Source: Mesorhizobium sp.
GTDB taxonomy: Bacteria > Pseudomonadota > Alphaproteobacteria > Rhizobiales > Rhizobiaceae
DNA: 64,000 bases
NCBI RefSeq assembly: GCF_016793485.1
Contig: NZ_JAEULZ010000030.1
Span: 1 to 64,000, forward strand
Direction: 5' to 3'
Shown: in pieces, positions 59,337 to 62,186 of the stretch
Position numbering within the stretch: the stretch's first letter is position 1
How the letters are laid out: every line of letters starts with the position of its first letter
Notes under the pieces: model-generated
The model's database searches: none
What the model saw: only the letters and a program-made list of their open reading frames with translations
Told to the model about the DNA's origin: nothing
Translations under genes and position numbers: made by a program

Positions 59337-60773
59337 ATGGCGTTACAGGGGAGTATGCGCTTGGTTGCGTTCGACGAAATGCAGCCGGAAAAATCCGGCA
59401 TAAGGCACTCATATTCGGCCTACGACCGCTGGTGGCAGCAGCAGGATCCGGCGAGACTAAGCGAAAAGATGCGCGACGCAGAGCGCGTCTTTCGCAAGAC
59501 GGGCATCACCTTCGCCGTCTATGGCGAGGAAGAGGCGGCCGAACGGCTCATTCCCTTCGACATCGTCCCTCGCATTCTTTCCGGGGCCGAATGGCGTCGC
59601 CTGACGCAGGGCATCGAACAGCGCGTGCAGGCGCTGAACGCGTTTCTGGACGACATCTATCACCGCCAGGAAATCCTGCGCGCCGGCCGCATCCCGAAGA
59701 GGCTGATCGCCGACAACGACGCCTTTCTCCCCGAAATGATCGGCGTGCGACCGCCGGCAGGCGTCTATACCCACATCATCGGCACCGATATTGTGCGCAC
59801 CGGCGAGAACGAGTTCTTCGTGCTGGAAGACAATGCGCGCACGCCTTCCGGCGTCTCCTACATGCTGGAAAACCGCGAGACGATGATGCAGCTCTTTCCC
59901 GAGCTGTTTCAGAAGATCAGGGTGCGGCCGGTCGAGAACTATCCGCAGCTGCTGCGCCAGTCGCTCGCCGCCGTGCGTCCTGAGAATTTGCGCGGGACGC
60001 CGACGATCGCGGTGCTGACGCCCGGCAGCTACAACTCGGCCTATTTCGAGCATGCCTTCCTCGCCGACCAGATGGGCGTGGAACTGGTCGAGGGACACGA
60101 TCTGCGCGTGGTCGACGGGCATGTCGCGATGCGCACGACCGAGGGCTACAAGCAGATCGACGTGCTCTACCGCCGCGTCGACGACTCTTTTCTCGACCCG
60201 CTGACGTTCCGGCCTGACTCGGCGCTCGGCGTGCCCGGCATCATGGACGTCTATCGCGCCGGCAACATCACGATCGCCAATGCGCCGGGCACCGGCATCG
60301 CCGACGACAAGGCGATCTATTCCTACATGCCCGACATCATCGAGTTCTACACCGGCCGCAAGGCGATCCTGCAGAACATCCAGACCTTCCGGTGCTCGGA
60401 GCCGGACACGCTGAAATATGTCCAGGAGAATTTGAAGGATCTGGTCGTGAAGGAGGTGCACGGCTCCGGCGGCTACGGCATGCTGGTTGGACCGACCGCC
60501 ACCAAGAAGGAGCGCGAGACCTTCTCCAAGAAGCTCGCCGCCAACCCGTCCAACTACATCGCCCAGCCGACGCTTTCGCTGTCGACCTGCCCGATCATGA
60601 CGGAAGCAGGCCTCTCGCCGCGCCATGTCGATCTCAGGCCTTTCGTGCTGGTGTCCGACAAGATTCAGATCGTGCCGGGGGGATTGACGCGGGTCGCGCT
60701 CAAAGAAGGCTCCCTGGTTGTGAATTCGTCACAGGGCGGCGGAACGAAGGATACGTGGGTTCTGGATGACTAG
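59337..60773 (+). CDS. circularly permuted ATP-grasp protein of the Anbu operon
   Basis: The 478-residue protein matches the DUF404/DUF407 circularly permuted ATP-grasp group: IFPRILSG-like PFDIVPRILSGAEWRRLTQG, GTDIVRTGENEFFVLEDNAR, TPSGVSYMLENRETMMQLFP, VDVLYRRVDDSFLDP-like IDVLYRRVDDSFLDPLTFRP and KEVHGSGGYGMLVGPTATKK. Such enzymes are predicted amide-bond ligases. It begins the Anbu operon with alpha-E, transglutaminase and Anbu genes. ATG 59337 is used; ATG 59355 is also possible. Its TAG stop is the first triplet of a repeat flanking the inserted S23 gene. Confidence 0.9.
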   Translation: MALQGSMRLVAFDEMQPEKSGIRHSYSAYDRWWQQQDPARLSEKMRDAERVFRKTGITFAVYGEEEAAERLIPFDIVPRILSGAEWRRLTQGIEQRVQALNAFLDDIYHRQEILRAGRIPKRLIADNDAFLPEMIGVRPPAGVYTHIIGTDIVRTGENEFFVLEDNARTPSGVSYMLENRETMMQLFPELFQKIRVRPVENYPQLLRQSLAAVRPENLRGTPTIAVLTPGSYNSAYFEHAFLADQMGVELVEGHDLRVVDGHVAMRTTEGYKQIDVLYRRVDDSFLDPLTFRPDSALGVPGIMDVYRAGNITIANAPGTGIADDKAIYSYMPDIIEFYTGRKAILQNIQTFRCSEPDTLKYVQENLKDLVVKEVHGSGGYGMLVGPTATKKERETFSKKLAANPSNYIAQPTLSLSTCPIMTEAGLSPRHVDLRPFVLVSDKIQIVPGGLTRVALKEGSLVVNSSQGGGTKDTWVLDD

Positions 60774-60806
60774 GGAGTAGGGAATAGGCAGTAGGGAGTA
60801 GTGGGG
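60771..60806 (+). repeat. left inverted repeat of S23 cassette
   Basis: The segment is built of GGGAGTAG and GGGAATAGG units. GGGAGTAGGGAATAGG at 60773-60788 is the exact reverse complement of 61210-61225 on the other side of the S23 gene. Confidence 0.75.
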
Positions 60807-60823
60807 TGGGGGTGCAAGCGGCG

Positions 60824-61183
60824 GTGAATTCCTACAGGGACCTGCTGGTTTGGCAGGCCTCAATGGATTTGGCAGTAATTTGCTATGCATCCACGAAGGA
60901 CTTTCCAAAGGCGGAGGTCTACGGGATGACATCTCAGATACGGCGGGCTTCCACCTCGGTGGCTGCAAATATCGCCGAGGGATATGGGCGCGAGAACACT
61001 GGGTCATACAGCCAGTTTCTCCGTATTGCCCAAGGGTCACTGAAGGAATTGGAGACGCTTGTGATTTTGTCTCAAAGGGTAGGGTTGATGACTGACGGCG
61101 CAACGTCGCGGTTGCTAGTTCAGTCCGATGAGGTGGGCAAAATGCTTCGCTCTCTAATCAGGCGCTTGCAGGTCAAGTCATGA
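60824..61183 (+). CDS. four-helix-bundle protein, S23/intervening-sequence-protein family
   Basis: The protein of about 119 residues has the S23 pattern VNSYRDLLVWQASMDLAVIC, YGMTSQIRRASTSVAANIAE, GYGRENTGSYSQFLRIAQGS and LKELETLVILSQRVGL. The family was first found in 23S rRNA intervening sequences and forms pentameric helical bundles; its role is unclear. Possible starts are GTG at 60806, 60812 and 60824; the last best fits the family N-terminus. It is embedded between the ATP-grasp and alpha-E genes and flanked by inverted repeats, which suggests insertion as a unit. Confidence 0.85.
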   Translation: MNSYRDLLVWQASMDLAVICYASTKDFPKAEVYGMTSQIRRASTSVAANIAEGYGRENTGSYSQFLRIAQGSLKELETLVILSQRVGLMTDGATSRLLVQSDEVGKMLRSLIRRLQVKS

Positions 61184-61191
61184 CATTGGCC

Positions 61192-61231
61192 ATTCCCTAT
61201 TCCCTATTCCCTATTCCCTACTCCCTTACTC
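61192..61231 (-). repeat. right inverted repeat of S23 cassette
   Basis: Four tandem CCCTATT-type heptamers followed by CCCTACTCCCTTACTC begin 8 bases after the S23 stop. The part at 61210-61225 pairs exactly with 60773-60788. Confidence 0.75.
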
Positions 61232-61244
61232 TCGAGGCCGCCTG

Positions 61245-62186
61245 ATGCTTCTCGGACGCGTCGCAAACGGCCTCTACTGGATGAACCGCTACATCGAGCG
61301 GGCGGAGAACATGGCGCGGCTGGTGGATGCCGGGCTGCGCATGGCGCTGACCCGCACTCAGAGCGCCGAGGAGGAATGGAAATCCGTCGTGCTGTCGGCT
61401 GGCGTCGATTCCGCCTTTGCCGCGAAGTACGGCGAGTACACGCCTGCCAACGTGTCGGATTTCCTGATCCGCGATACGACCAACCCGTCAAGCGCCATGG
61501 CGTCCATGGAAACCGCTCGCTTCAACGCCCGAATGGTACGCACGGCGCTGACGCGCGAGACGTGGGAGGCAATCAACGAAGCCTGGATGTCGCTGAAACG
61601 CGTGCTCGCCAATCCGATCGACGAGCGCGACCTGCCGAGCGTGCTCGACGCCATCAAGCGCGAGACGGCGCTCATACGCGGCTGCTTCTACGGCACGATG
61701 CTGCGCAACGAGATCTTCGATTTCGCCCAGATCGGCACCTATGTCGAGCGCGCCGACAACACCGCGCGCATCCTCGACGTCAAATATTACGTGCTGCTGC
61801 CGTCGGTCTCGTGGGTCGGGTCGACGCTGGACAACTCGCAATGGGAGTCGATCCTGCGCTCGGTTTCGGCGCATCGGTCCTATCGCTGGGTCTATGACGC
61901 CGAATACAAGCCGACCAACATCGCCGACTATCTGATCCTGAACGGCCGCATGCCGCGCTCTCTGACCTTCTGCTACCGCTTCCTCGCCGAGCACCTGCGA
62001 TTCCGCGAGGAGGATTACGGCTTGCGGCTGCCGTGCCACAAACTCGTCGAGGACACGCTGGCGAAACTGCGTTCGAGTTCGGTGAAACAGATATTCGATG
62101 AAGGCTTGCACGAGTTCCTGACCGACTTCATCCGCGACAACAACCGGCTCGGCGACGAGGTCGCGGCCAACTATCGTTTCCACTGA
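61245..62186 (+). CDS. alpha-E domain protein (DUF403)
   Basis: The 313-residue, mostly helical protein fits the alpha-E family: LLGRVANGLYWMNRYIERAE, NMARLVDAGLRMAL, then FDFAQIGTYVERADNTARIL and SYRWVYDAEYKPTNIADYLI. It co-occurs with circularly permuted ATP-grasp and transglutaminase genes and is predicted to take part in peptide synthesis or modification; no reaction has been shown. GAGG lies about 9 bases before the ATG. It is 10 bp upstream of the transglutaminase gene. Confidence 0.92.
   Translation: MLLGRVANGLYWMNRYIERAENMARLVDAGLRMALTRTQSAEEEWKSVVLSAGVDSAFAAKYGEYTPANVSDFLIRDTTNPSSAMASMETARFNARMVRTALTRETWEAINEAWMSLKRVLANPIDERDLPSVLDAIKRETALIRGCFYGTMLRNEIFDFAQIGTYVERADNTARILDVKYYVLLPSVSWVGSTLDNSQWESILRSVSAHRSYRWVYDAEYKPTNIADYLILNGRMPRSLTFCYRFLAEHLRFREEDYGLRLPCHKLVEDTLAKLRSSSVKQIFDEGLHEFLTDFIRDNNRLGDEVAANYRFH

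Follow-up and report, generated by a model that had tools for sequence, protein, structure and literature searches.

The S23 family is large, and its members, annotated just as "four helix bundle protein," still lack a settled function. The intervening sequence (IVS) of the Coxiella 23S rRNA gene contains an S23 ORF and a 28-bp stem and is excised by RNase III; direct GACAGAT heptamers lie upstream of the S23 ORF, and the accessible part of the source calls both the function and the origin of IVSs unclear (PMC4990558). In the RAYT/REPIN system, as far as the available text describes it, the RAYT is a Y1 tyrosine transposase (PMC3116915). G-rich heptamer repeats, in turn, are abundant as GGGAATC in Xanthomonas and GGGGAYT in Nostoc, where they lie near stop codons and between aligned ORFs and are mostly transcribed (Rehm et al., 2015, PMC4692102). 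The same article, in the portion available, counts 70 and 75 convergent (inverted) close array pairs in two Xanthomonas genomes, finds inverted pairs to be few in Nostoc and generally does not tie the repeats to mobile elements; its main text draws no link to S23, the terms "s23" and "xcc0516" being absent from it. For the TAACTGA heptamers of Beggiatoaceae, a role in translational regulation has been proposed, according to the part of the report at hand (PMC4679880). The likeness of PF05635 (2GSC) to Avd has already been published (PMC10053308, in the text available). Within the accessible text of the open-licence PMC literature, we found neither S23 genes outside rRNA linked to heptamer arms nor a description of the broader association between S23 and heptamer arrays.

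In the window, i.e., the whole 64,000-nucleotide stretch of Mesorhizobium sp. DNA that was analyzed, an S23 gene is located between two protein genes and not inside a 23S rRNA gene, and complementary ends enclose its ORF, as in the 23S rRNA IVS. The cassette is about 450-500 bp in size and consists of a left 7-nt array, the S23 gene and an inverted right array (Table 1). The sequence-only reading had placed the gene between those for ATP-grasp and alpha-E on the same strand, and this is confirmed; an in-frame GTG at 60824 is a possible true start. According to TRF, the left array has a period of 7 with 4.4 copies (83%) and the right one a period of 7 with 5 copies (96%), and the inverted-repeat search aligned 60772-60801 with 61197-61226 over 30 nt at 90% complementarity. 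The stop codon of the ATP-grasp gene (TAG, 60771-60773) overlaps the start of the left array, which therefore begins within it, as had been proposed. The 16-mer on which that reading was built, GGGAGTAGGGAATAGG, does occur at 60773-60788, with its exact reverse complement at 61210-61225, both within the longer 7-nt arrays; what stays constant is the period of 7 nt and the agreement of a locus's two arms, the exact 16-mer being incidental.

Table 1. Features of the cassette, its host genes and the gene-less array pair in the window.
Feature	Position	Strand	Basis
Upstream host gene, circularly permuted ATP-grasp	59337..60773	+	PF14403
Left arm, 7-nt array, units GGGAGTA/GGGAATA/GGCAGTA	60771..60801	+	TRF, inverted-repeat search
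S23 gene (23S rRNA IVP, four-helix bundle), 125 aa, GTG start	60806..61183	+	ORF, PF05635, TIGR02436
Right arm, 7-nt array, ATTCCCT units, inverse of left arm	61192..61226	+	TRF, inverted-repeat search
Downstream host gene, alpha-E	61245..62186	+	PF04168
Gene-less inverted arrays, 8-nt type GGGAGTAG / CCCTACTC, behind stop codon	55072..55171	.	TRF

The operon comprises five genes: ATP-grasp (PF14403), S23, alpha-E (PF04168), transglutaminase (PF01841) and a proteasome-family gene (PF00227). We take the last of these to be Anbu, and the gene set fits the Anbu operon that had been named as the context. S23 is the sole family-matched gene inside the cassette, and none of the ORFs listed there fits a transposase, in line with the earlier remark that none is present. 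The S23 protein scored well above the cut-offs of PF05635 (117.8 bits vs. 33.8, E 3.2e-34) and TIGR02436 (115.9 bits vs. 24, E 9.5e-34). Its structure model has four helices (mean pLDDT 90.9); the best PDB matches in Foldseek were 2gsc and 2rld, followed by Avd of diversity-generating retroelements (8ub7 and 4dwl, TM 0.74-0.78 by query length), and the Avd models stayed below their cut-offs (25.6 of 40 bits and 22.4 of 80 bits). The protein lacks histidine and hence has no HUH nuclease, and no catalytic domain was recognized in S23. The window gene is the only S23 match in its own genome. Other genomes have several copies, namely four in G142 and four loci, one of them broken into two matches, in G073; no match to the protein was found in 50,697 phage records.

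The comparison of related genomes shows that the S23 cassette at the ATP-grasp/alpha-E junction is an insertion. In one genome of the same genus (G151, alpha-E 95% identical), the ATP-grasp stop and the alpha-E start are one base apart (TAG A ATG), and in another (G067) a plain 18-nt gap separates the two genes; both represent the empty site that the sequence-only reading had suggested looking for. A third member of the genus (G152, an 87% complete assembly) has inverted GTGAATG arrays at this junction with no room for a gene between them. Within the family, the junction was array-free in 20 of the 21 S23-less genomes (score 7 or less in those 20), and the remaining one, G008, had an array there without a gene. 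The nuoC/nuoD junction had a score of 7 or less and no array in all 28 genomes without S23 at that place, 27 of which are S23-less by genome search and the other of which is G151, whose S23 status refers to this junction only. The genomes G151 and G152 were joined through a genus search and left out of the S23-less count, and the weak alpha-E matches L230 and L231 were left out of the junction set. The empty sites put the insertion at the stop codon, where the array repeats would hide any target-site duplication.

S23 is present in 47 of the 151 genomes of the family, with 62 match rows that represent 59 loci. As many as 53 of these loci occupy three operon junctions (27 at nuoC/nuoD, 14 at ATP-grasp/alpha-E and 12 at glutamine synthetase/FAD oxidoreductase), and the other six lie elsewhere; in all 53, S23 has the strand of both neighbors. 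The junction names nuoC/nuoD and glutamine synthetase/FAD oxidoreductase, like sufD/sufS, ybaB/recR, aroC/ribB and HlyD/ABC, are our own assignments from the translations. On a tree of 53 S23 rows (L060, L061, L062, L014, L063 and the short L051 were left out), the site changed 8 times against a mean of 24.4 in shuffled data. The clustering is imperfect, with L007, L042 and L054, found in other places, nested within the glutamine-synthetase clade. Such clustering by site indicates that most copies were inherited at, or confined to, one site, and, since most of them keep to three junctions, that movement is rare or site-directed. Judging from the tree, the copies appear to be mostly faithful to a site and to move sometimes. 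As a separate observation, in seven S23-less relatives (L182, L184, L189, L191, L193, L195 and L196) the nuoC/nuoD gap of 427-469 nt holds an unrelated small gene, by its looks presumably a GFA-family enzyme, so this junction accepts more than one gene kind.

By sequence alignment, homology between S23 copies at different sites appears to end near the arms. For the pairs L036/L054 and L022/L034, which occupy different sites, DNA identity in 50-nt steps was 62-86% between -50 and roughly +450 relative to the gene start, compared with 44-66% beyond that span. BLAST alignments of L036/L054, L050/L054, L032/L054, L022/L034 and L007/L040 began 46-62 bp ahead of the matched gene and stopped 54-118 bp past it. 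The 50-nt profiles of four pairs, namely these two together with L145/L147 and L162/L175, showed 54-92% identity from -50 to +350 and mostly lower values outside, with identity climbing again to 74-86% between +500 and +650 in L145/L147. Of the 1887 S23-overlapping DNA alignments, 357 ended within 160 bp of the gene, many of them being short pieces inside the gene, and the boundary inference was restricted to pairs whose alignment reaches the arms. The earlier proposal of a small mobile unit whose only gene is S23 is supported by this element-limited homology together with the empty and filled sites. On Calothrix brevissima plasmids 1 and 2 (L299 and L300), which belong to one strain, S23 lies directly behind a gene of the phage-integrase family in a larger common segment; we rejected this pair for the definition of exact boundaries, on which it is silent because the larger neighborhood is common to both plasmids. 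Plasmid records with S23 numbered 29, of which 27 were cyanobacterial.

The repeat unit varies by locus. We found GCGAATA, GTGAATG, GGCAGTC, GGCAGTA, GTGAGTA, GGGAATA and the 8-mers GGGCAGTA and GGGGAGTA, and, in other loci, GGGTGTA, GGTGTTA, GGGATCA, GGCTTAT and others. Despite this variety, when joint periods from 4 to 12 were compared, 7 or 8 came out best in 179 of the 185 distinct loci (7 in 154 of them), and coding sequences gave no period 7/8 peak. The two arms of one locus match each other: over 130 loci, own arms had a mean score of 45.3 vs. 24.2 for the arms of other loci, and the maximum of 2000 permutations was 27.1, so the match is not due to chance. The same was seen within sites, with own-arm and between-locus scores of 43.3 vs. 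25.4 at the nuo site, 49.4 vs. 28.1 at the ATP-grasp site and 49.2 vs. 41.4 at the glutamine-synthetase site, where the permutation maximum of 49.1 was barely exceeded. A locus's own right arm was the single best partner in 19 of the 130 rows and among the top three in 43, since many loci have one unit in common. Arm lengths were weakly correlated (rho 0.30 overall; not significant within three sites), and copying of the arms as whole units was rejected on the grounds that, within a site, left and right arrays vary in length without following one another.

The arms scored better than all 100 shuffles in 51 of the 58 family loci. The sequence-only reading had expected other S23 genes to have the same flanking heptamers; such repeats are indeed present, but the unit is not common to all loci and differs by lineage. 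Neither outcome named beforehand as speaking against that reading, S23 at this site with unrelated flanks in all relatives or other S23 genes without repeats, arose. In the named set, 58 of 72 loci from several phyla beat all shuffles; this rate is not a census, because the set consists of the best 80 of 566 confirmed stretches by query similarity. Going by the titles of the records, the named loci that passed include Alphaproteobacteria, Cyanobacteria, a member of Chloroflexota (L153), Planctomycetes (L132, L167 and L173), Acidobacteria (L109, L161 and L179), Fibrobacteres (L146), a gammaproteobacterium (L164) and an archaeal MAG (L177), the last possibly a contamination. In the Pseudomonadota sample, S23 occurred in 62 of 398 genomes, about a third of the match rows were left out (mainly fragments, weak matches and further copies from the own family), and 34 of the 55 distinct loci beat all shuffles; outside the own family 28 of 49 distinct loci passed the arm test and 21 failed. 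Seven duplicates between or within the family and named sets were left out, as were L169 for its short flank (its arms scored z 8.4) and, from the Pseudomonadota set, L298, L253 and three duplicates. L063 (G025:C99), a family match to the S23 model with no matched arms, was also left out of the arm statistics; it stands beside what by its looks we take to be a reverse transcriptase and is presumably the Avd of a diversity-generating retroelement.

Among the 58 named loci with arms (again from the best 80 of 566 stretches), a same-strand ORF of at least 100 aa ends at the arm start in 51; the median distance of the ORF end from the arm start was +2 nt and the range -41 to +35 within a search span of -150 to +35, with no shuffled control. 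A constant role of the left arm in supplying stop codons in all frames was rejected, as 71 of 109 arms have all three and 11 have none. In Mesorhizobium and related genomes there is a further common upstream neighbor (L039, L114, L115, L121, L168, L241, L244, L247 and L252), which we take to be acyl-CoA dehydrogenase-like; the arms beside it are GGCAGTA arrays of 12 to 89 nt.

At all three sites, arm similarity was correlated with that of the S23 protein when the host was controlled for (partial Mantel r 0.62, p 0.0002, 23 loci at nuo; 0.69, p 0.0002, 12 loci at ATP-grasp; 0.44, p 0.002, 11 loci at glutamine synthetase), whereas arms against host given S23 yielded 0.08, -0.15 and 0.05, respectively. 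With coding bases removed, each arm alone gave 0.37 and 0.59 at nuo and 0.52 and 0.72 at ATP-grasp; at glutamine synthetase the values were weak (0.22, p 0.08, and 0.26, p 0.04). To judge from these correlations, the unit varies along with the S23 protein, not with the host.

Arrays of this kind also occur as inverted pairs with no gene between them. A degenerate pattern gave 29 matches in the own genome and none when reversed: 6 fall in the cassette, 21 in four gene-less inverted array pairs and 2 are stray. Each of the four pairs has co-directional genes on its two sides and is placed either behind the upstream gene's stop codon or within it. Together with the pair that TRF detected in the window (Table 1), the genome has five gene-less pairs. 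The window pair, whose flanking genes we take to be two adjacent peptidyl-prolyl isomerase-like genes, is probably a miniature of the cassette kind; the octamer pattern gave nothing beyond chance in this genome (2 matches vs. 4 for the reversed control).

Three unit-specific patterns were counted in 80 family genomes after subtraction of the S23 cassette's own matches. Further arrays of the own S23 unit were found in 5 of 5 genomes whose S23 has that unit and in 9 of 42 other S23 genomes (p 0.0013); the corresponding figures were 7 of 9 and 6 of 38 for the second unit (p 0.0007) and 8 of 14 and 8 of 33 for the third (p 0.045). Arrays of any of the three units occurred in 29 of 47 S23 genomes and 7 of 31 S23-less ones (p 0.001); all these genome counts ignore kinship. 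The reversed-pattern controls gave no match for GTGAATG in any of the 80 genomes, a total of 3 for GCGAATA and between 0 and 2 in each genome for GGCAGTC. Some genomes have arrays of a unit other than that of their S23 arms: G105 (G105:C1) and G127 have GCGAATA arms, yet 21 GGCAGTC and 46 GTGAATG matches, respectively, perhaps as relics of a different S23 type that has since been lost. The S23-less G008 has 46 GTGAATG matches, and G095 has 18 GGCAGTC matches, some of them at contig ends.

Based on these results, we favor, with somewhat better than even confidence, the explanation that S23 and its heptamer arrays form a small, selfish mobile element, similar to RAYT/REPIN in its way of working but with no known transposase. 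In the proposed mechanism, the S23 protein, judged by the fold common to Avd to be probably a nucleic-acid-binding ring, would recognize the arrays. Along with host enzymes, it would act in trans to spread not only its own cassette but also the gene-less pairs, by analogy to what RAYTs are thought to do for REPINs. Insertion behind a stop codon and in the direction of the operon would allow a promoterless S23 to be transcribed from the host operon and leave the host genes intact. Several results speak against this explanation: the lack of a recognized catalytic domain and of a readable target duplication, the clustering of S23 by site, the small share of rows in which the own right arm is the best partner, the marginal arm match and weak per-arm link to S23 at glutamine synthetase, the arrays in S23-less genomes or of units foreign to the resident S23, the Pseudomonadota loci that failed the arm test and the absence of phage matches.

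Alternatively, the cassette could act as an intervening sequence of mRNA, in which the arms would be an RNA stem cut by RNase III. The cut would release S23 from the message of the operon and render the insert harmless, and the protein would either ride along or bind the stem. In the sense RNA of the cassette the arms do pair as one long closing stem (-202.3 kcal/mol; mean of 100 shuffles -170.6, SD 6.6, z -4.8), and both the RNase III-excised Coxiella IVS, in the description available (PMC4990558), and the heptamer-armed S23 copies within two 23S genes of G367 fit such a view. A bias among arm mismatches would be expected if the sense stem were kept, but isolated mismatches showed none (73 G-U vs. 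63 A-C, p 0.44), and upkeep of the stem at the RNA level was rejected on this count, which a mutational strand bias could mask or mimic. As the arm lengths are also so weakly correlated, and an mRNA intervening sequence alone leaves the gene-less pairs elsewhere unexplained, we regard this alternative as unlikely. The unbiased mismatches and the existence of gene-less pairs are the reasons why an element acting at the DNA level is preferred to a purely RNA-level one; a route through RNA with a trans-acting reverse transcriptase is conceivable, since S23 has its fold in common with Avd, a partner of reverse transcriptase.

Less probable still is a regulator useful to the host, in which S23 and the arrays would be kept because they tune how the genes of the operons (nuo, glutamine synthetase, ATP-grasp/alpha-E) are translated, or their stability. 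The strong purifying selection under which S23 stands (26 pairs, of which the 18 that are unsaturated have a median dN/dS of 0.08), which also counts in favor of the selfish element, the use of the same three junctions across many genera with clustering by site, and the translational role proposed for the Beggiatoaceae heptamers in the available text (PMC4679880) would agree with it. However, S23 is patchy within the family, the junctions of S23-less genomes are mostly array-free, the neighbor genes have no obvious common trait, and the tie between S23 and host similarity is weak at nuo (0.21) and ATP-grasp (0.34), though stronger at glutamine synthetase (0.60). That the arrays are ordinary simple repeats grown by slippage, serving as insertion hot spots where S23 sits by chance or as the cargo of an unseen transposase, agrees with the largely independent copy numbers of the two arms and with the abundance of heptamers in Xanthomonas and Nostoc (PMC4692102, in the part available), but it is already disfavored and very improbable, given that the arms of a locus have one unit in inverted order, that the units follow the S23 protein and that S23-less sites are mostly array-free at both nuo and alpha-E.

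The selfish mobile element may also extend to rRNA. A location scan found S23 inside 23S rRNA genes in none of the 20 named loci scanned (out of 80) and in 2 of the 20 scanned loci of the Pseudomonadota set (out of 60); both belong to G367 and are identical copies with arms of TCAGGAA-like heptamers. Taken together with the heptamers and stem of Coxiella, these copies make the rRNA IVSs and the operon cassettes look like one element kind, and the S23 intervening sequences in 23S rRNA may be the same kind of element at an rRNA site. More tentatively, and with rather less confidence than we give the element itself, S23 might found a class of transposition systems for which no catalytic domain is known. 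In such a system, a protein of four helices arranged as a ring would read a lineage-specific seven-base word, the same in both arms, and would place copies of S23 cassettes and of empty array pairs behind stop codons throughout bacteria, with the 23S rRNA IVSs and the Xanthomonas and Nostoc heptamers included.

We know of no maker of heptamer repeats so far. Tying S23 to them through a unit that varies along with the protein renders the function of S23 and the origin of the heptamers testable and suggests a common origin of the rRNA and operon inserts. The 7-nt period is constant over units that are otherwise little alike, and any mechanism must explain it. That cassettes of this kind, every one with a word of its own, occur in several bacterial phyla together with short gene-less copies suggests an overlooked family of mobile elements.

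Among the known systems, the heptamer repeats of Xanthomonas and Nostoc resemble the S23 arms in their 7-nt arrays, inverted pairs and proximity to stop codons, as far as the available text describes them (PMC4692102). Avd of diversity-generating retroelements has its fold in common with the window S23, but Avd has an adjacent reverse transcriptase, whereas the window S23 has ATP-grasp and alpha-E as neighbors and misses the Avd cut-offs. The IVSs of the Coxiella and Leptospira type, like the window cassette, have the S23 gene between complementary ends. They are located in rRNA and excised by RNase III, whereas the window cassette directly follows a protein gene's stop codon, has matched 7-nt arrays as both ends and has gene-less relatives dispersed elsewhere. 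REP units, to our knowledge, are not 7-nt tandem arrays. RAYTs are HUH-type Y1 transposases, in contrast to the four-helix bundle without histidine in the window, and since the HUH transposase is absent, the S23 element is not a member of RAYT/REPIN. The likeness lies in a gene flanked by a type of inverted repeat that is also dispersed as gene-less extragenic hairpins, and in a repeat type linked to the gene lineage as the S23 units are (PMC3116915, in the part available). The S23 element is probably best described as an S23 IVS-like element that is RAYT/REPIN-like in the way it works.
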